Shown: one piece after another, positions 20,444-38,777 of the stretch
Numbering within the stretch: position 1 is the stretch's first letter
How the letters are laid out: each line of letters starts with the position of its first letter
Assembly (NCBI RefSeq): GCF_023078335.1
Contig: NZ_CP095550.1
Location: 1,656,001-1,720,000, forward strand
DNA: 64,000 nt
Reading direction: 5' to 3'
From: Metabacillus endolithicus
GTDB taxonomy: Bacteria > Bacillota > Bacilli > Bacillales > Bacillaceae
The notes under the pieces: model-generated
Databases searched by the model: none
The model's input: only the letters and a program-made list of their open reading frames with translations
Told to the model about the DNA's origin: nothing
Made by a program: the position numbers and the translations under genes

Positions 20444-20592
20444 TTTAGGCACATGTTCATCCCTTCAACGCTGACGAGGTTAGCTGTCGGATTCGGGCAA
20501 AAGAGAATAGGCCTACAAACGCAAAAAAACGTTTGATTCACCCCAAGTCAAGTTTGACATCTTTTATGGGTCCCCCGCTCCTACTTATAGGA
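20444..20592 (-). promoter_or_regulatory. c-di-AMP riboswitch (ydaO-yuaA class) upstream of ktrA
   Basis: Minus strand carries the class landmarks in order: GGGGGACCCA, TTGGGGTGAATC, a variable hairpin (CAAACGTTTTTTTGCGTTTG), GAATCCGACAGCTAACC, then TCGTCAGCGTTGAAGGGA. A terminator follows. High c-di-AMP is expected to favour termination and so lower K+ import. The borders are approximate. Confidence 0.9.
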
Positions 20593-20827
20593 TTAAGCGA
20601 TTATTGATACTCTATTCTGTTTTTATGGTATTTCTATAAAAATTAGCATAAGCAAAAACTTAACGATTATGAATGTTATCTTACTCCTCTAAGTAATTGA
20701 TCGTAAAGTATTAATTTTTGCTTAAAAAGACGAAATTGGAATAAGAAGGCTCGTTTAACCGCTTACAAGCCATTTTTACTTAGTCGCGCTTTTTATTTCG
20801 TCTTTCTACATACCCCTATCAAAATAG
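20593..20827. other. Unassigned intergenic DNA with two adjacent hairpins
   Basis: This stretch between the tatA terminator and the ktr leader holds no ORF I can support. Two back-to-back inverted repeats are visible: TAAGCAAAAA (20649-20658) with TTTTTGCTTA (20715-20724), plus internal ACGAT/ATCGT; and AAAGACGAAAT (20726-20736) with ATTTCGTCTTT (20795-20805). They could be an untranslated RNA or the 5' end of the ktr leader. Confidence 0.4.
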
Positions 20828-36454: not shown

Positions 36455-38350
36455 TTATTCTTGATCAATATCAATTGTTACCCCTTCAACAAACTTACGA
36501 TCCATTAATTTTTTCTTCTTTCTTATATCTTTGGCGTCAAAAACCTGGTCCATGTCATATTCATTCGGATACAGTTCTTCCGCTTGGATAAAAGGCTTTA
36601 CTCGCTTGTGATTTAGCGTCATTTTTTCTCCTTTTACAATTAGCTTCATTTCTCCAATAGCATTGGCTGTCATTTCAACAATTCCCTTTGTATGAAGGTG
36701 AGGAATCCAGACTGCATCCCCTATTTGGTAGTTTCTTGTATGCTTTTCACTTCTTACTTTTTCTATTTTACGTTCAAATTTTTTCCTATTCTTTGTTTTA
36801 GGAACAATCGCTACTTCTTCTGTTGATCGGGAGTTGGAAATCTCTTTTGCTCGGTTGATAATATTGGCGGGCATACCAAGCTTCTGCGCAATCGAGAATG
36901 CCTGACTATCCCCTCCTTTACCTACAATCAGTTTATAAAGAGGTTGAAGAGTATGAATATCAAAATCCATTGATCCATTTTGAAAGCCTTCTGCTTTTTC
37001 AGCATAATCTTTTATTTCACTGTAATGGGTTGTAGCAATTAGCATAGCGCCTGAGTTATAGATTTCTTCTAGTATAGAAATGGCTAATCCCATTCCTTCA
37101 CGTGGATCTGTTCCTGAGCCAATCTCATCTAAAATAACAAGAGTATCTTCACGTGATTGTCTCAAAATATCAATCACATTTTGAATATGTGATGAAAACG
37201 TGCTTAATGAATGCTCGATGCTTTGATGATCACCAATATCAACAAAGATGTTTTTTACAATGCTAAACGTACTGAAAGAGTCAGCCGGTACATGAAGACC
37301 TGATTGAACCATCATTGATAACAAGCCAACCGTTTTTATTGTGACTGTTTTACCTCCTGTGTTAGGACCTGTGATGACAAGTGCCATATATTCTTGGCCT
37401 AATGATAAGGTTAAAGGAACAGCATTCAATCCTAATAAAGGATGTCTGGCATTGAATATCTGGAAGCCTTCATACTGCTTTATTTGGACTTCATTTCCTT
37501 TCATCGATTGACTTAACTTTGCTTTAGCAAATATAAAGTCATAAGATACCATTCCCTCTATGTTAATTAGGAGTTCTTGTTTGTATGAGGCAGTAAGATC
37601 TGTTAAGTGGCCCAAAATCTTTTGAACCTCCACCTCTTCTTCTACTTTTAAATAGCCAAGCTCATCTTGAAGCTTATTTAAATCATGCGGCTCCATAAAA
37701 ACGGTTTGCCCACTTGAAGATTGATCTACTATAGCTCCTGAAAACTTCCGCTTGTATTCATTTTTCACCGGGACAACATACCGTCCATTCCTTACGCTTA
37801 CAACTTGTTCCTGAAGATAGCTTGAAAAAGATTTCATGATTTGCGTTAGTTTTGTTTTAATCTTTTCTTCAATTGTGATGATCTTGCCTCTGATCTTGGT
37901 TAATGACCGGCTGGCATAGTCATCTACTTGATTGTTTCTTATACAACGTGAAATTTCATCAACCAGATCAGACAGTTCATACAAAGAATAGGCATAAGAA
38001 CTTATTGTGGGTGCATGGTATTCCTGCTTTATCATAAATCTTTTGATTTTCTTCACACTGTCTAAAAAAGCTCCTAAAAATTCAAATTGCTCTGGAGTTG
38101 GCATATATCCTTTATCAGCTAGTGTGAGGATTTGTTCAACACCATGGAGGGAATGAACAGGGATACTCGATGATTTTTCAATAATAGTGCAAGCTTCGGA
38201 TGTTTCGTTTAACCATCTTTTTATTTTCCCTTCATCGGTAATCGGCGTTAGTTCTCTAGATCTTATCTTGGCTTTTTCACTCATAGCAAATTCACTTAGT
38301 AGTTCTAAGACTTTGTTAAATTCTAAAACTTCAAAAGTTTTGTTGTTCAA
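36455..38350 (-). CDS. MutS2 paralogue lacking the Smr domain
   Basis: A 631-residue protein of the MutS2 branch. N-terminal core/lever helices (about 1-300, with QEQVVSVRNGRYVVPVKNEYK and GAIVDQSSSGQTVFMEP), then the ABC-type ATPase: Walker A ITGPNTGGKTVTIKT, signature LSTFSSHI, Walker B LVILDEIGSGTDPREG, H-loop IATTHYSEIK. A KOW-like segment follows (about 540-595, YQIGDAVWIPHLHTKGIV). MutS2 of B. subtilis continues for about 150 residues to an Smr nuclease; here the chain ends (VEGVTIDIDQE) where Smr would begin. TTG start at 38350 with GGAGG nine bases upstream. B. subtilis MutS2 is linked to collided ribosomes. A complex leader precedes this gene. Confidence 0.88.
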   Translation of the reverse strand: MNNKTFEVLEFNKVLELLSEFAMSEKAKIRSRELTPITDEGKIKRWLNETSEACTIIEKSSSIPVHSLHGVEQILTLADKGYMPTPEQFEFLGAFLDSVKKIKRFMIKQEYHAPTISSYAYSLYELSDLVDEISRCIRNNQVDDYASRSLTKIRGKIITIEEKIKTKLTQIMKSFSSYLQEQVVSVRNGRYVVPVKNEYKRKFSGAIVDQSSSGQTVFMEPHDLNKLQDELGYLKVEEEVEVQKILGHLTDLTASYKQELLINIEGMVSYDFIFAKAKLSQSMKGNEVQIKQYEGFQIFNARHPLLGLNAVPLTLSLGQEYMALVITGPNTGGKTVTIKTVGLLSMMVQSGLHVPADSFSTFSIVKNIFVDIGDHQSIEHSLSTFSSHIQNVIDILRQSREDTLVILDEIGSGTDPREGMGLAISILEEIYNSGAMLIATTHYSEIKDYAEKAEGFQNGSMDFDIHTLQPLYKLIVGKGGDSQAFSIAQKLGMPANIINRAKEISNSRSTEEVAIVPKTKNRKKFERKIEKVRSEKHTRNYQIGDAVWIPHLHTKGIVEMTANAIGEMKLIVKGEKMTLNHKRVKPFIQAEELYPNEYDMDQVFDAKDIRKKKKLMDRKFVEGVTIDIDQE

Positions 38351-38390
38351 TGGTTTGAACCTCCGTTATATTTATTTTTTGAATTAAAAT

Positions 38391-38430
38391 AAAAAAAGAG
38401 GTGATGAACAATGGTTGTTCATCACCTCTT
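38391..38430 (-). terminator. Leader terminator T2, just before the MutS2-like gene
   Basis: A 16-bp perfect stem (AAGAGGTGATGAACAA / TTGTTCATCACCTCTT, 3-nt loop) followed by a run of T on the minus-strand transcript, ending about 40 nt before the TTG start codon. Unless overcome it should stop transcription into the gene. Confidence 0.9.
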
Positions 38431-38466
38431 AAAACCTCTGCATGGGCCTAGGAGTCTACACTTAAG

Positions 38467-38491
38467 AACAAATGACTTAATGTCATTTGTT
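38467..38491 (-). repeat. Leader hairpin D
   Basis: Ten-bp perfect stem AACAAATGAC / GTCATTTGTT with no T-run after it, so not a terminator. Its 3' arm overlaps segment C (38462-38472), which can instead pair with segment B (38582-38592). Confidence 0.7.
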
Positions 38492-38501
38492 TTTTTGTAA
38501 A

Positions 38502-38534
38502 CATAAAAATCCGTACTTAAACAAGCACGGATTT
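38502..38534 (-). terminator. Leader terminator T1
   Basis: Minus strand AAATCCGTGCTT / AAGTACGGATTT (12 bp with one G-U pair, 4-nt loop) followed by TTTTAT. It is an intrinsic terminator roughly 190 nt into the leader. Confidence 0.8.
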
Positions 38535-38726
38535 ATCCACGAGCACTATGCTAAGAGATCGTAAATTGTGTACATACCGTTTTTGTTCTTAACTGTCCAC
38601 ATGGATATACTTAAATAAACCTTTCAATTCGAAAAGTTTTTAAAAGCATTTACATGTAGATGAAGTATTTACTTCGATTAGTTAAGAACAGAAACCCTCA
38701 CAAAACACATCTCCTAAAATTTAATT
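38535..38726 (-). promoter_or_regulatory. Attenuator leader of the MutS2-like gene (5' part)
   Basis: The transcript from the 38757 promoter carries a leader ORF whose codons contain segment A (38680-38690), complementary over 11 nt to segment B (38584-38594). B is also complementary over 11 nt to segment C (38462-38472, with B read as 38582-38592) and partly to the 5' arm of T1 (38519-38530 with 38577-38587). These pairings exclude each other, the usual layout of ribosome-mediated attenuation. The switch mechanism is inference. Confidence 0.6.
38678..38701 (-). CDS. Seven-codon leader peptide MRVSVLN
   Basis: GTG 38701 with AGGAGA eight bases upstream opens GTG AGG GTT TCT GTT CTT AAC TAA. 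The last codons form segment A of the attenuator, so a ribosome paused on this ORF would free segment B. Too short for function as a protein; best read as a sensor of translation, as in leader peptides of macrolide, lincosamide and phenicol resistance genes. Confidence 0.6.
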   Translation of the reverse strand: MRVSVLN

Positions 38727-38732
38727 ACTTAT

Positions 38733-38762
38733 AAAATATCAGAATTCAAAGTGAATTGTCAA
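38733..38762 (-). promoter_or_regulatory. Promoter of the attenuator leader
   Basis: Minus strand TTGACA (38762-38757), 18-bp spacer with TG before the -10, and TATTTT (38738-38733). It starts a leader of about 375 nt before the MutS2-like start codon. Confidence 0.7.
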
Positions 38763-38777
38763 TATAAGGTTATGTAA

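Follow-up and report, generated by a model that had tools for sequence, protein, structure and literature searches.

The closest described systems include the leaders of vmlR, cplR and yxjB (for which we take tlrB to be another name). In the excerpts available of the report on the vmlR leader (PMC9226507), the Bacillus subtilis NusG pause motif is given as TTNTTT, which in vmlR follows the anti-antiterminator and precedes the 3′ part of the antiterminator; in those of a report on further attenuators (PMC10201436), the cplR upstream open reading frame (uORF) was shown to gate both transcription and translation. As far as the excerpts of a third report (PMC10897456) describe it, B. subtilis MutS2 is a splitter of stalled ribosomes for which the ATPase is critical, its loss makes cells hypersensitive to chloramphenicol, tetracycline and erythromycin, and in mutants of KOW or SMR the sensitivity to erythromycin is only modest. 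Experiments described in the available part of PMC11633108 indicate additional, unknown splitting factors in B. subtilis. Here we describe a leader whose layout is of the vmlR attenuator type and whose gene encodes an Smr-less MutS2 paralogue, not an ABCF protein. In the parts of the open-licence literature available to our search, we found no report of this leader.

The leader and the gene it precedes

The window, that is, the whole stretch analysed, comprises 64,000 nt of the 5.3 Mb genome of Metabacillus endolithicus; window coordinates are used throughout, and the features of the leader lie on the minus strand. On that strand a GNAT gene ends 427 nt (38351-38777) ahead of a TTG-started ORF of 631 aa (36455-38350). 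A −35 box, TTGACA (38757-38762), and a −10 box, TATTTT with extended TG (38733-38738), mark a putative promoter. The preliminary description had called this promoter strong; the boxes are present, and TTGACA..TG..TATTTT-like elements are found again in related leaders read by eye, but the match by itself is not above chance in a promoter scan (3 sites vs. 2.6 expected). The uORF, GTG AGG GTT TCT GTT CTT AAC TAA (38678-38701), encodes MRVSVLN, lies downstream of a Shine-Dalgarno sequence, AGGAG (38711-38715), and carries immediately before its stop codon GTTCTTAAC, which is found in the same position in 85 of 86 uORFs of the VLN type (those ending in Val-Leu-Asn).

Segment A (38680-38690), the putative 5′ strand of an anti-antiterminator, lies within the uORF and is a perfect 11-nt complement of 38584-38594 in segment B, CAGTTAAGAACAAAAACGG (38577-38595); an 11-nt complement of the uORF within 38500-38640 arose in 2 of 5000 dinucleotide shuffles. 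B (38582-38592) is also a perfect 11-nt complement of segment C (38462-38472), a match that arose within 38440-38500 in 2 of 5000 shuffles. Two intrinsic terminators, T1 (38507-38534) and T2 (38396-38430), lie between B and the Shine-Dalgarno sequence of the gene, GGAGG (38360-38364), terminator-like sites numbering 3 (T1, T2 and a weak third) vs. 0.1 expected, and T2 contains TTGTTC (38406-38411), the complement of GAACAA in B. The uORF with its good ribosome-binding site, both pairings and both terminators had been set out in the preliminary description, and all are borne out. Between A and B lie a small hairpin, GAAGTAAATACTTC, directly after the uORF stop codon (38662-38675), where hairpins with other stems recur in other leaders (by eye), and a hairpin followed by TTTATTT (38613-38640; TTATTT at 38613-38618), a candidate NusG-dependent pause site. 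The segment 38351-38726 has a predicted folding energy of −122 kcal/mol (z = −10 vs. shuffles) and forms chiefly one long hairpin enclosing the Shine-Dalgarno sequence and start of the uORF and segment A, with the 3′ side of the outer helix (38553-38576 in the minimum-free-energy fold) pairing with the Shine-Dalgarno/start region; that is, a short uORF with its Shine-Dalgarno sequence sits inside a hairpin, as in leaders of the vmlR type. In six leaders (L004, L040, L041, L043, L049 and L222), GC-rich DNA resembling a repeat (GAGACTCCTGTGGGAG...GGAAAGC and similar) lies, by eye, between T2 and the Shine-Dalgarno sequence of the gene.

The downstream gene encodes not an ABCF ATPase but a MutS2-type protein: MutS domain V and TIGR01069 are matched, the latter with 605.6 bits (cut-off 400). 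The closest named relatives, with 71-78% identity, are from Metabacillus and two "Bacillus sp." records (L001-L008). The same genome also encodes a canonical MutS2 of 786 aa, with which the paralogue shares 39% identity over 543 aligned positions. In an unrooted tree, one branch with 100/100 support separates 42 short paralogues from 12 canonical MutS2 proteins, and the short paralogues form two supported subgroups. Walker A, PN[TA]GGKT, and the DE of Walker B are present in all 42 paralogue rows, Walker B reading DE.G.GT in 36 and having Ala in place of Gly in six (DEMASGTDP and similar; L234, L235, L236, L238, L239 and L241). No Smr domain was matched in 11 paralogues, and HG[KR]G, which we take to be the Smr signature, occurs in 0 of 42 paralogue rows vs. 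11 of 12 canonical rows. The C-terminus has a KOW-like stretch followed by a conserved tail, LYPxxYDxDxxF, the LYP of which is retained in 41 of 42 rows. An AlphaFold2 model of the paralogue (mean pLDDT 76; weak at 375-383, 459-482, 508-538 and in the tail) resembles MutS2 structures, among them the collided-disome complex 7qv3, and predicts four strands in the KOW region (546-580, pLDDT near 80), beyond residue 536, where the BLASTP alignment to canonical MutS2 ends. The lack of an Smr domain, which aids MutS2 in binding collided ribosomes, counts against a role at the ribosome. Because the ATPase of B. subtilis MutS2 is critical and the effects of its KOW and SMR mutations are modest, a paralogue with an ATPase, a KOW-like part and no Smr domain could still act on ribosomes, and we consider it most likely that this Smr-less ATPase acts on stalled ribosomes.

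Distribution of the leader and conservation of the uORF end

Searching 299 genomes of the order with a profile built from 11 paralogues, we find the short paralogue form in at least 122. A leader pattern comprising the uORF end and B, GTTCTTAACTAR-N60-90-GTTAAGAACA, gives 74 matches in 72 of the 299 genomes and 23 of 117 genera; reversed as a control, it matches nowhere in the 299 genomes. A homologous leader before orthologues, the absence of which the preliminary description had named beforehand as counting against its proposal, is present: 70 of the 74 matches are followed, at a distance of 158-605 nt, by a short MutS2 paralogue. One match (in G261) is the palindromic reverse of a counted match, and those in G089 (L222) and G195 (L221) precede paralogue ORFs with an interrupted reading frame. 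The exact pattern is absent from 52 paralogue genomes, many of which, among those read, have other uORF types or small differences.

Upstream regions were also scored for a uORF plus complement, each region being represented by its best-pairing uORF candidate and the canonical and antisense controls being given the same choice. A best score of at least 20 is reached in 98 of 125 distinct paralogue upstreams vs. 0 of 20 canonical mutS2 upstreams and 17 of 145 antisense sequences, the antisense set not having been made distinct and a hairpin read backwards still being a hairpin. A uORF with a complement of at least 8 nt is found in 0 of the 20 canonical upstreams, a small control. When each row is compared with its own shuffles, 103 of the 125 reach p ≤ 0.05 and 51 reach p ≤ 0.005; these values take no account of the selection of the best candidate, and none of the counts is one of independent events, the rows being related. 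The score alone is no proof, because L265, outside the class, scores 27.5 with an implausible uORF. One row (L120) has no uORF candidate, and 14 of the 125 upstreams were excluded from later counts for a doubtful uORF or pairing (L007, L009, L011, L071, L072, L107, L108, L109, L111, L113, L153, L155, L158 and L165), several of them having a plausible uORF (MSAVGTK, MSGVVSK) with weaker A:B pairing. In four rows counted as non-VLN (L089, L090, L095 and L110) GTTCTTAAC is present and the frame taken by the scanner was wrong, and some peptides are one or two residues too long because the scanner began them at a TTG or ATG further upstream. Among 19 short paralogues read outside the class, seven (L243, L245, L246, L247, L248, L250 and L251) have an MS..-type uORF, with scores from 13 to 31.5, and for the remainder the scanner gave no uORF or a doubtful one, L252, L258 and L264 showing an MS.. 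start by eye. We conclude from these sequence comparisons that the leader is associated with the short MutS2 paralogue.

Several records stand apart. A second leader copy in G252 (L220, 6620-6910), with uORF MKVVVLN, precedes a GNAT acetyltransferase gene whose NCBIfam matches are weak and all below cut-off. Three records, two labelled Enterococcus phage and one Listeria phage (L267, L268 and L269), contain a full-length short paralogue with, by eye, MSVVGI and MSVAGI uORFs; these contigs are unannotated and may be host DNA. The paralogue with a VLN-type leader is also found on two plasmid-classed records, pHD01 of Paenibacillus sp. IHB B 3084 (L241) and a plasmid of Cytobacillus spongiae (L240).

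The uORF end is conserved as nucleotide sequence. In 85 of the 86 uORFs ending in Val-Leu-Asn the codons are GTT CTT AAC, with GTTAAGAAC opposite in 79. The exception, L146, encodes the same peptide through CTG AAT and has B altered to match; L246, outside the class, uses CTG, with a matching change in B and a 14-pair run (one G-U); and one-sided changes in L006, L008, L103, L159 and L161 retain a G-U pair. Other groups have uORFs MSVYRF, MSAVGTK, MSVVGIN, MSGVVSK, MSVLSI and MLMSEVVSA, with complements mostly changed in step; pairing is weak in the MSAVGTK and MSGVVSK rows (p 0.12-0.34). The uORF hairpin is thus preserved by compensating changes between groups. An RNAalifold consensus of 51 of the 84 VLN leaders retains only A:B, which is invariant there and so without covariation, and covariation was for this reason read between groups. 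The covariation for which the preliminary description had proposed a search is accordingly found for A:B between groups and not within the VLN alignment. Conservation is concentrated in the uORF end, B and TTNTTT. Of 111 leaders, 96 have TTNTTT between A and B vs. 44 expected, and 47 have the longer form TTTATTT vs. 5.1 expected; the last motif in this interval begins a median of 24 nt before B (quartiles 22-27).

The pattern of conservation bears on three alternatives to a sensor of inhibited ribosomes. An amino-acid starvation attenuator, in which the uORF would sense uncharged tRNA at Val, Leu or Asn codons, would accord with the prevalence of Val-Leu-Asn (86 of 125 called uORFs), and a ribosome stalled at hungry codons would work the same RNA switch; single-codon runs are absent, however, the same layout occurs in other groups with uORFs ending in Arg-Phe, Gly-Thr-Lys, Ser-Lys, Ser-Ile or Val-Ser-Ala, and the regulated gene is non-biosynthetic, and we regard starvation sensing as improbable. 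A riboswitch-like leader that binds a metabolite or protein, with the uORF incidental, might be expected to be long, strongly folded and furnished with two terminators, as this leader is, but conservation centred on the uORF end, B and TTNTTT, with A:B alone retained across 51 leaders, and the absence of any Rfam 15 family at gathering score for the window leader make this reading very improbable. Two related loci are also without an Rfam match at gathering score. An antisense match on the plus strand (38399-38574) to rliA, a Listeria sRNA, was judged to be chance (32.1 bits vs. a gathering score of 50). Elsewhere on the minus strand of the window, a c-di-AMP (ydaO/yuaA) riboswitch (20454-20609) and a SAM riboswitch (90-196) score above gathering. 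Lastly, two strong terminators before a gene would suit a leader whose terminated form is mainly a small RNA, or one that serves as an insulating double terminator; a uORF with a Shine-Dalgarno sequence, a compensated A:B pairing and a TTNTTT motif at fixed position would then be purposeless, and to this reading we assign the slightest probability of all.

Folding of the leader with free and masked uORF

For a switch governed by stalled ribosomes, we computed folding with the uORF masked to mimic a stalled ribosome in the 67 of 84 VLN leaders that have at least two terminators passing filters. At equilibrium, the mean T1 stem probability is 0.87 with the uORF free and 0.83 with the uORF masked. 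The probability drops by at least 0.3 in 7 of 67 leaders with the uORF masked and in none with a control mask, and it moves in the opposite direction, rising by at least 0.2, in four (L105, L134, L136 and L137). Because masking the uORF barely weakens T1, a simple equilibrium switch is disfavoured. A second quantity, chosen after the equilibrium result was known, is how far the T1 5′ arm is occupied while the 3′ arm has yet to be transcribed. At this stage the 5′ arm is paired with probability 0.47 with the uORF free, 0.68 with the uORF masked and 0.49 with the control mask; changes of at least 0.2 are upward in 35 of 67 leaders and downward in 2 of 67 (3 and 0, respectively, with the control mask), and L134 and L136 lose occupancy. 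By computation, then, capture of the T1 5′ arm is greater in about half of the leaders only.

In the window leader, the T1 5′ arm has a total occupancy of 0.63 with the uORF free and 0.58 with it masked, and the partner alone changes: B pairs with this arm at 0.00 when the uORF is free, and under the mask at 0.16-0.21 with T1 transcribed to its 12th base and at 0.45-0.48 with T1 transcribed to its 16th and 18th. The preliminary description had proposed that masking A frees B and opens T1. The computed pairing of B with the T1 5′ arm (from 0.00 to 0.16-0.48) agrees with the first part; the second part fares less well, T1 being barely weaker at equilibrium and total occupancy in the window not being raised.

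T2 is a strong terminator, a point against the attenuator mechanism proposed below, in which polymerase would have to pass it. Of 84 VLN leaders, 45 have TTGTTC in the last terminator vs. 2.6 expected, and 0 of 67 have it in the first; the enrichment in the last terminator suggests that B may also act on T2. Segment C, the third pairing partner in the preliminary description, does not generalize among VLN leaders, being kept in the window and in its nearest relatives only. B has a complement further downstream (p ≤ 0.05) in 11 of 86 VLN-type leaders (14 of 90 after moving the four wrong-frame rows) and in 15 of 25 non-VLN leaders (12 of 21 after the same move), most of the non-VLN complements being 40-60 nt short of the end of the upstream sequence retrieved. 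The complements in the non-VLN rows make a translational step likely there. More generally, freed B might chiefly affect the downstream ribosome-binding site and not T1, a possibility to which the non-VLN complements, the complementarity of C to the Shine-Dalgarno or start region as well (by eye) and the near-constancy of T1 at equilibrium all lend weight. In the VLN rows, the window's own class, the complement is present in just the 11 of 86 (or 14 of 90) and capture of the T1 5′ arm is up in 35 of 67, and we consider a chiefly translation-level switch unlikely.

A proposed stalling-dependent attenuator and its relation to known systems

We propose, with a probability of roughly 0.78, that the leader is a ribosome-stalling-dependent transcription attenuator through which stalled ribosomes switch on a ribosome-rescue ATPase. 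In unstressed cells the seven-codon uORF would be translated rapidly, after which the uORF 3′ end (A) would pair with B, and T1 and T2 would halt transcription. A ribosome stalled on the uORF would cover A and release B; freed B, together with the adjoining stretch, would capture the T1 5′ arm ahead of synthesis of the 3′ arm, and polymerase would read on. Polymerase and ribosome are probably kept in step by the candidate pause site that lies between A and B. In this mechanism we infer stalling as the trigger, pausing, passage of T2 and the function of the protein. Because the product most likely acts on stalled ribosomes, the stall signal would induce its own remedy.

A broader reading, which we hold tentatively and at somewhat less than even odds, is that a conserved RNA-plus-peptide sensor, predating the split between the two paralogue subgroups, senses stalled ribosomes and turns on an Smr-less MutS2 dedicated to splitting them, as an inducible rescue arm in many Bacilli and some other Bacillota, with the uORF end being read both as peptide (Val5 and Asn7 before the stop) and as RNA (A). 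If so, a stall-controlled, inducible Smr-less MutS2 would be, in related genera, a splitting factor of the additional kind indicated for B. subtilis, and ribosome quality control would be linked to a leader type of intrinsic antibiotic resistance. The near-invariant uORF end across many genera offers a ready test of joint selection on peptide and RNA.

At the level of the gene product, the comparison is with canonical MutS2, which shares with the paralogue Walker A, Walker B and a TIGR01069 match above cut-off. The paralogue differs in having no Smr domain, in having its own LYPxxYDxDxxF tail and in forming a separate group (100/100), and the window-type leader is unseen in the 20 canonical mutS2 upstreams.

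At the level of the leader, and as far as the available excerpts of the reports go, the closest counterpart is the B. subtilis vmlR leader, an ARE-ABCF attenuator (PMC9226507), which likewise has a short uORF in an anti-antiterminator hairpin, a TTATTT pause hairpin before the 3′ part of the antiterminator, and an intrinsic terminator. The vmlR gene encodes an ABCF protein and its uORF ends in Met-Ile-Asn, whereas the window gene encodes a MutS2-type ATPase and its uORF has seven codons ending in Val-Leu-Asn-stop. Unlike vmlR, leaders of the window type have two strong terminators, with complementarity to B often present in the second, and a uORF end and B that are nearly invariant in nucleotides across 23 of 117 genera. 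The Shine-Dalgarno-sequestering hairpin of vmlR has a possible counterpart (C) in non-VLN rows and none shown in the window. In the excerpts of PMC10201436, the attenuators of cplR, vmlR2 and lsaA likewise have short uORFs before the gene of a ribosome-acting factor, but with other genes and other uORFs (MR[I/M], MK[L/Q], MAGN). The yxjB leader, as described in part of PMC6851288, is similar in combining NusG pausing with tylosin-dependent ribosome stalling and different in preceding a methyltransferase gene. In the excerpts of PMC12121999, toiL-topAI of Escherichia coli resembles the window leader in that a single uORF senses several classes of ribosome-targeting antibiotic, and differs in using translational repression with Rho-dependent termination and in having a toxin-antitoxin target. 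Because the residues preceding Val-Leu-Asn vary, a general sensor, as in toiL, is favoured over a stalling peptide that is strictly drug-specific.
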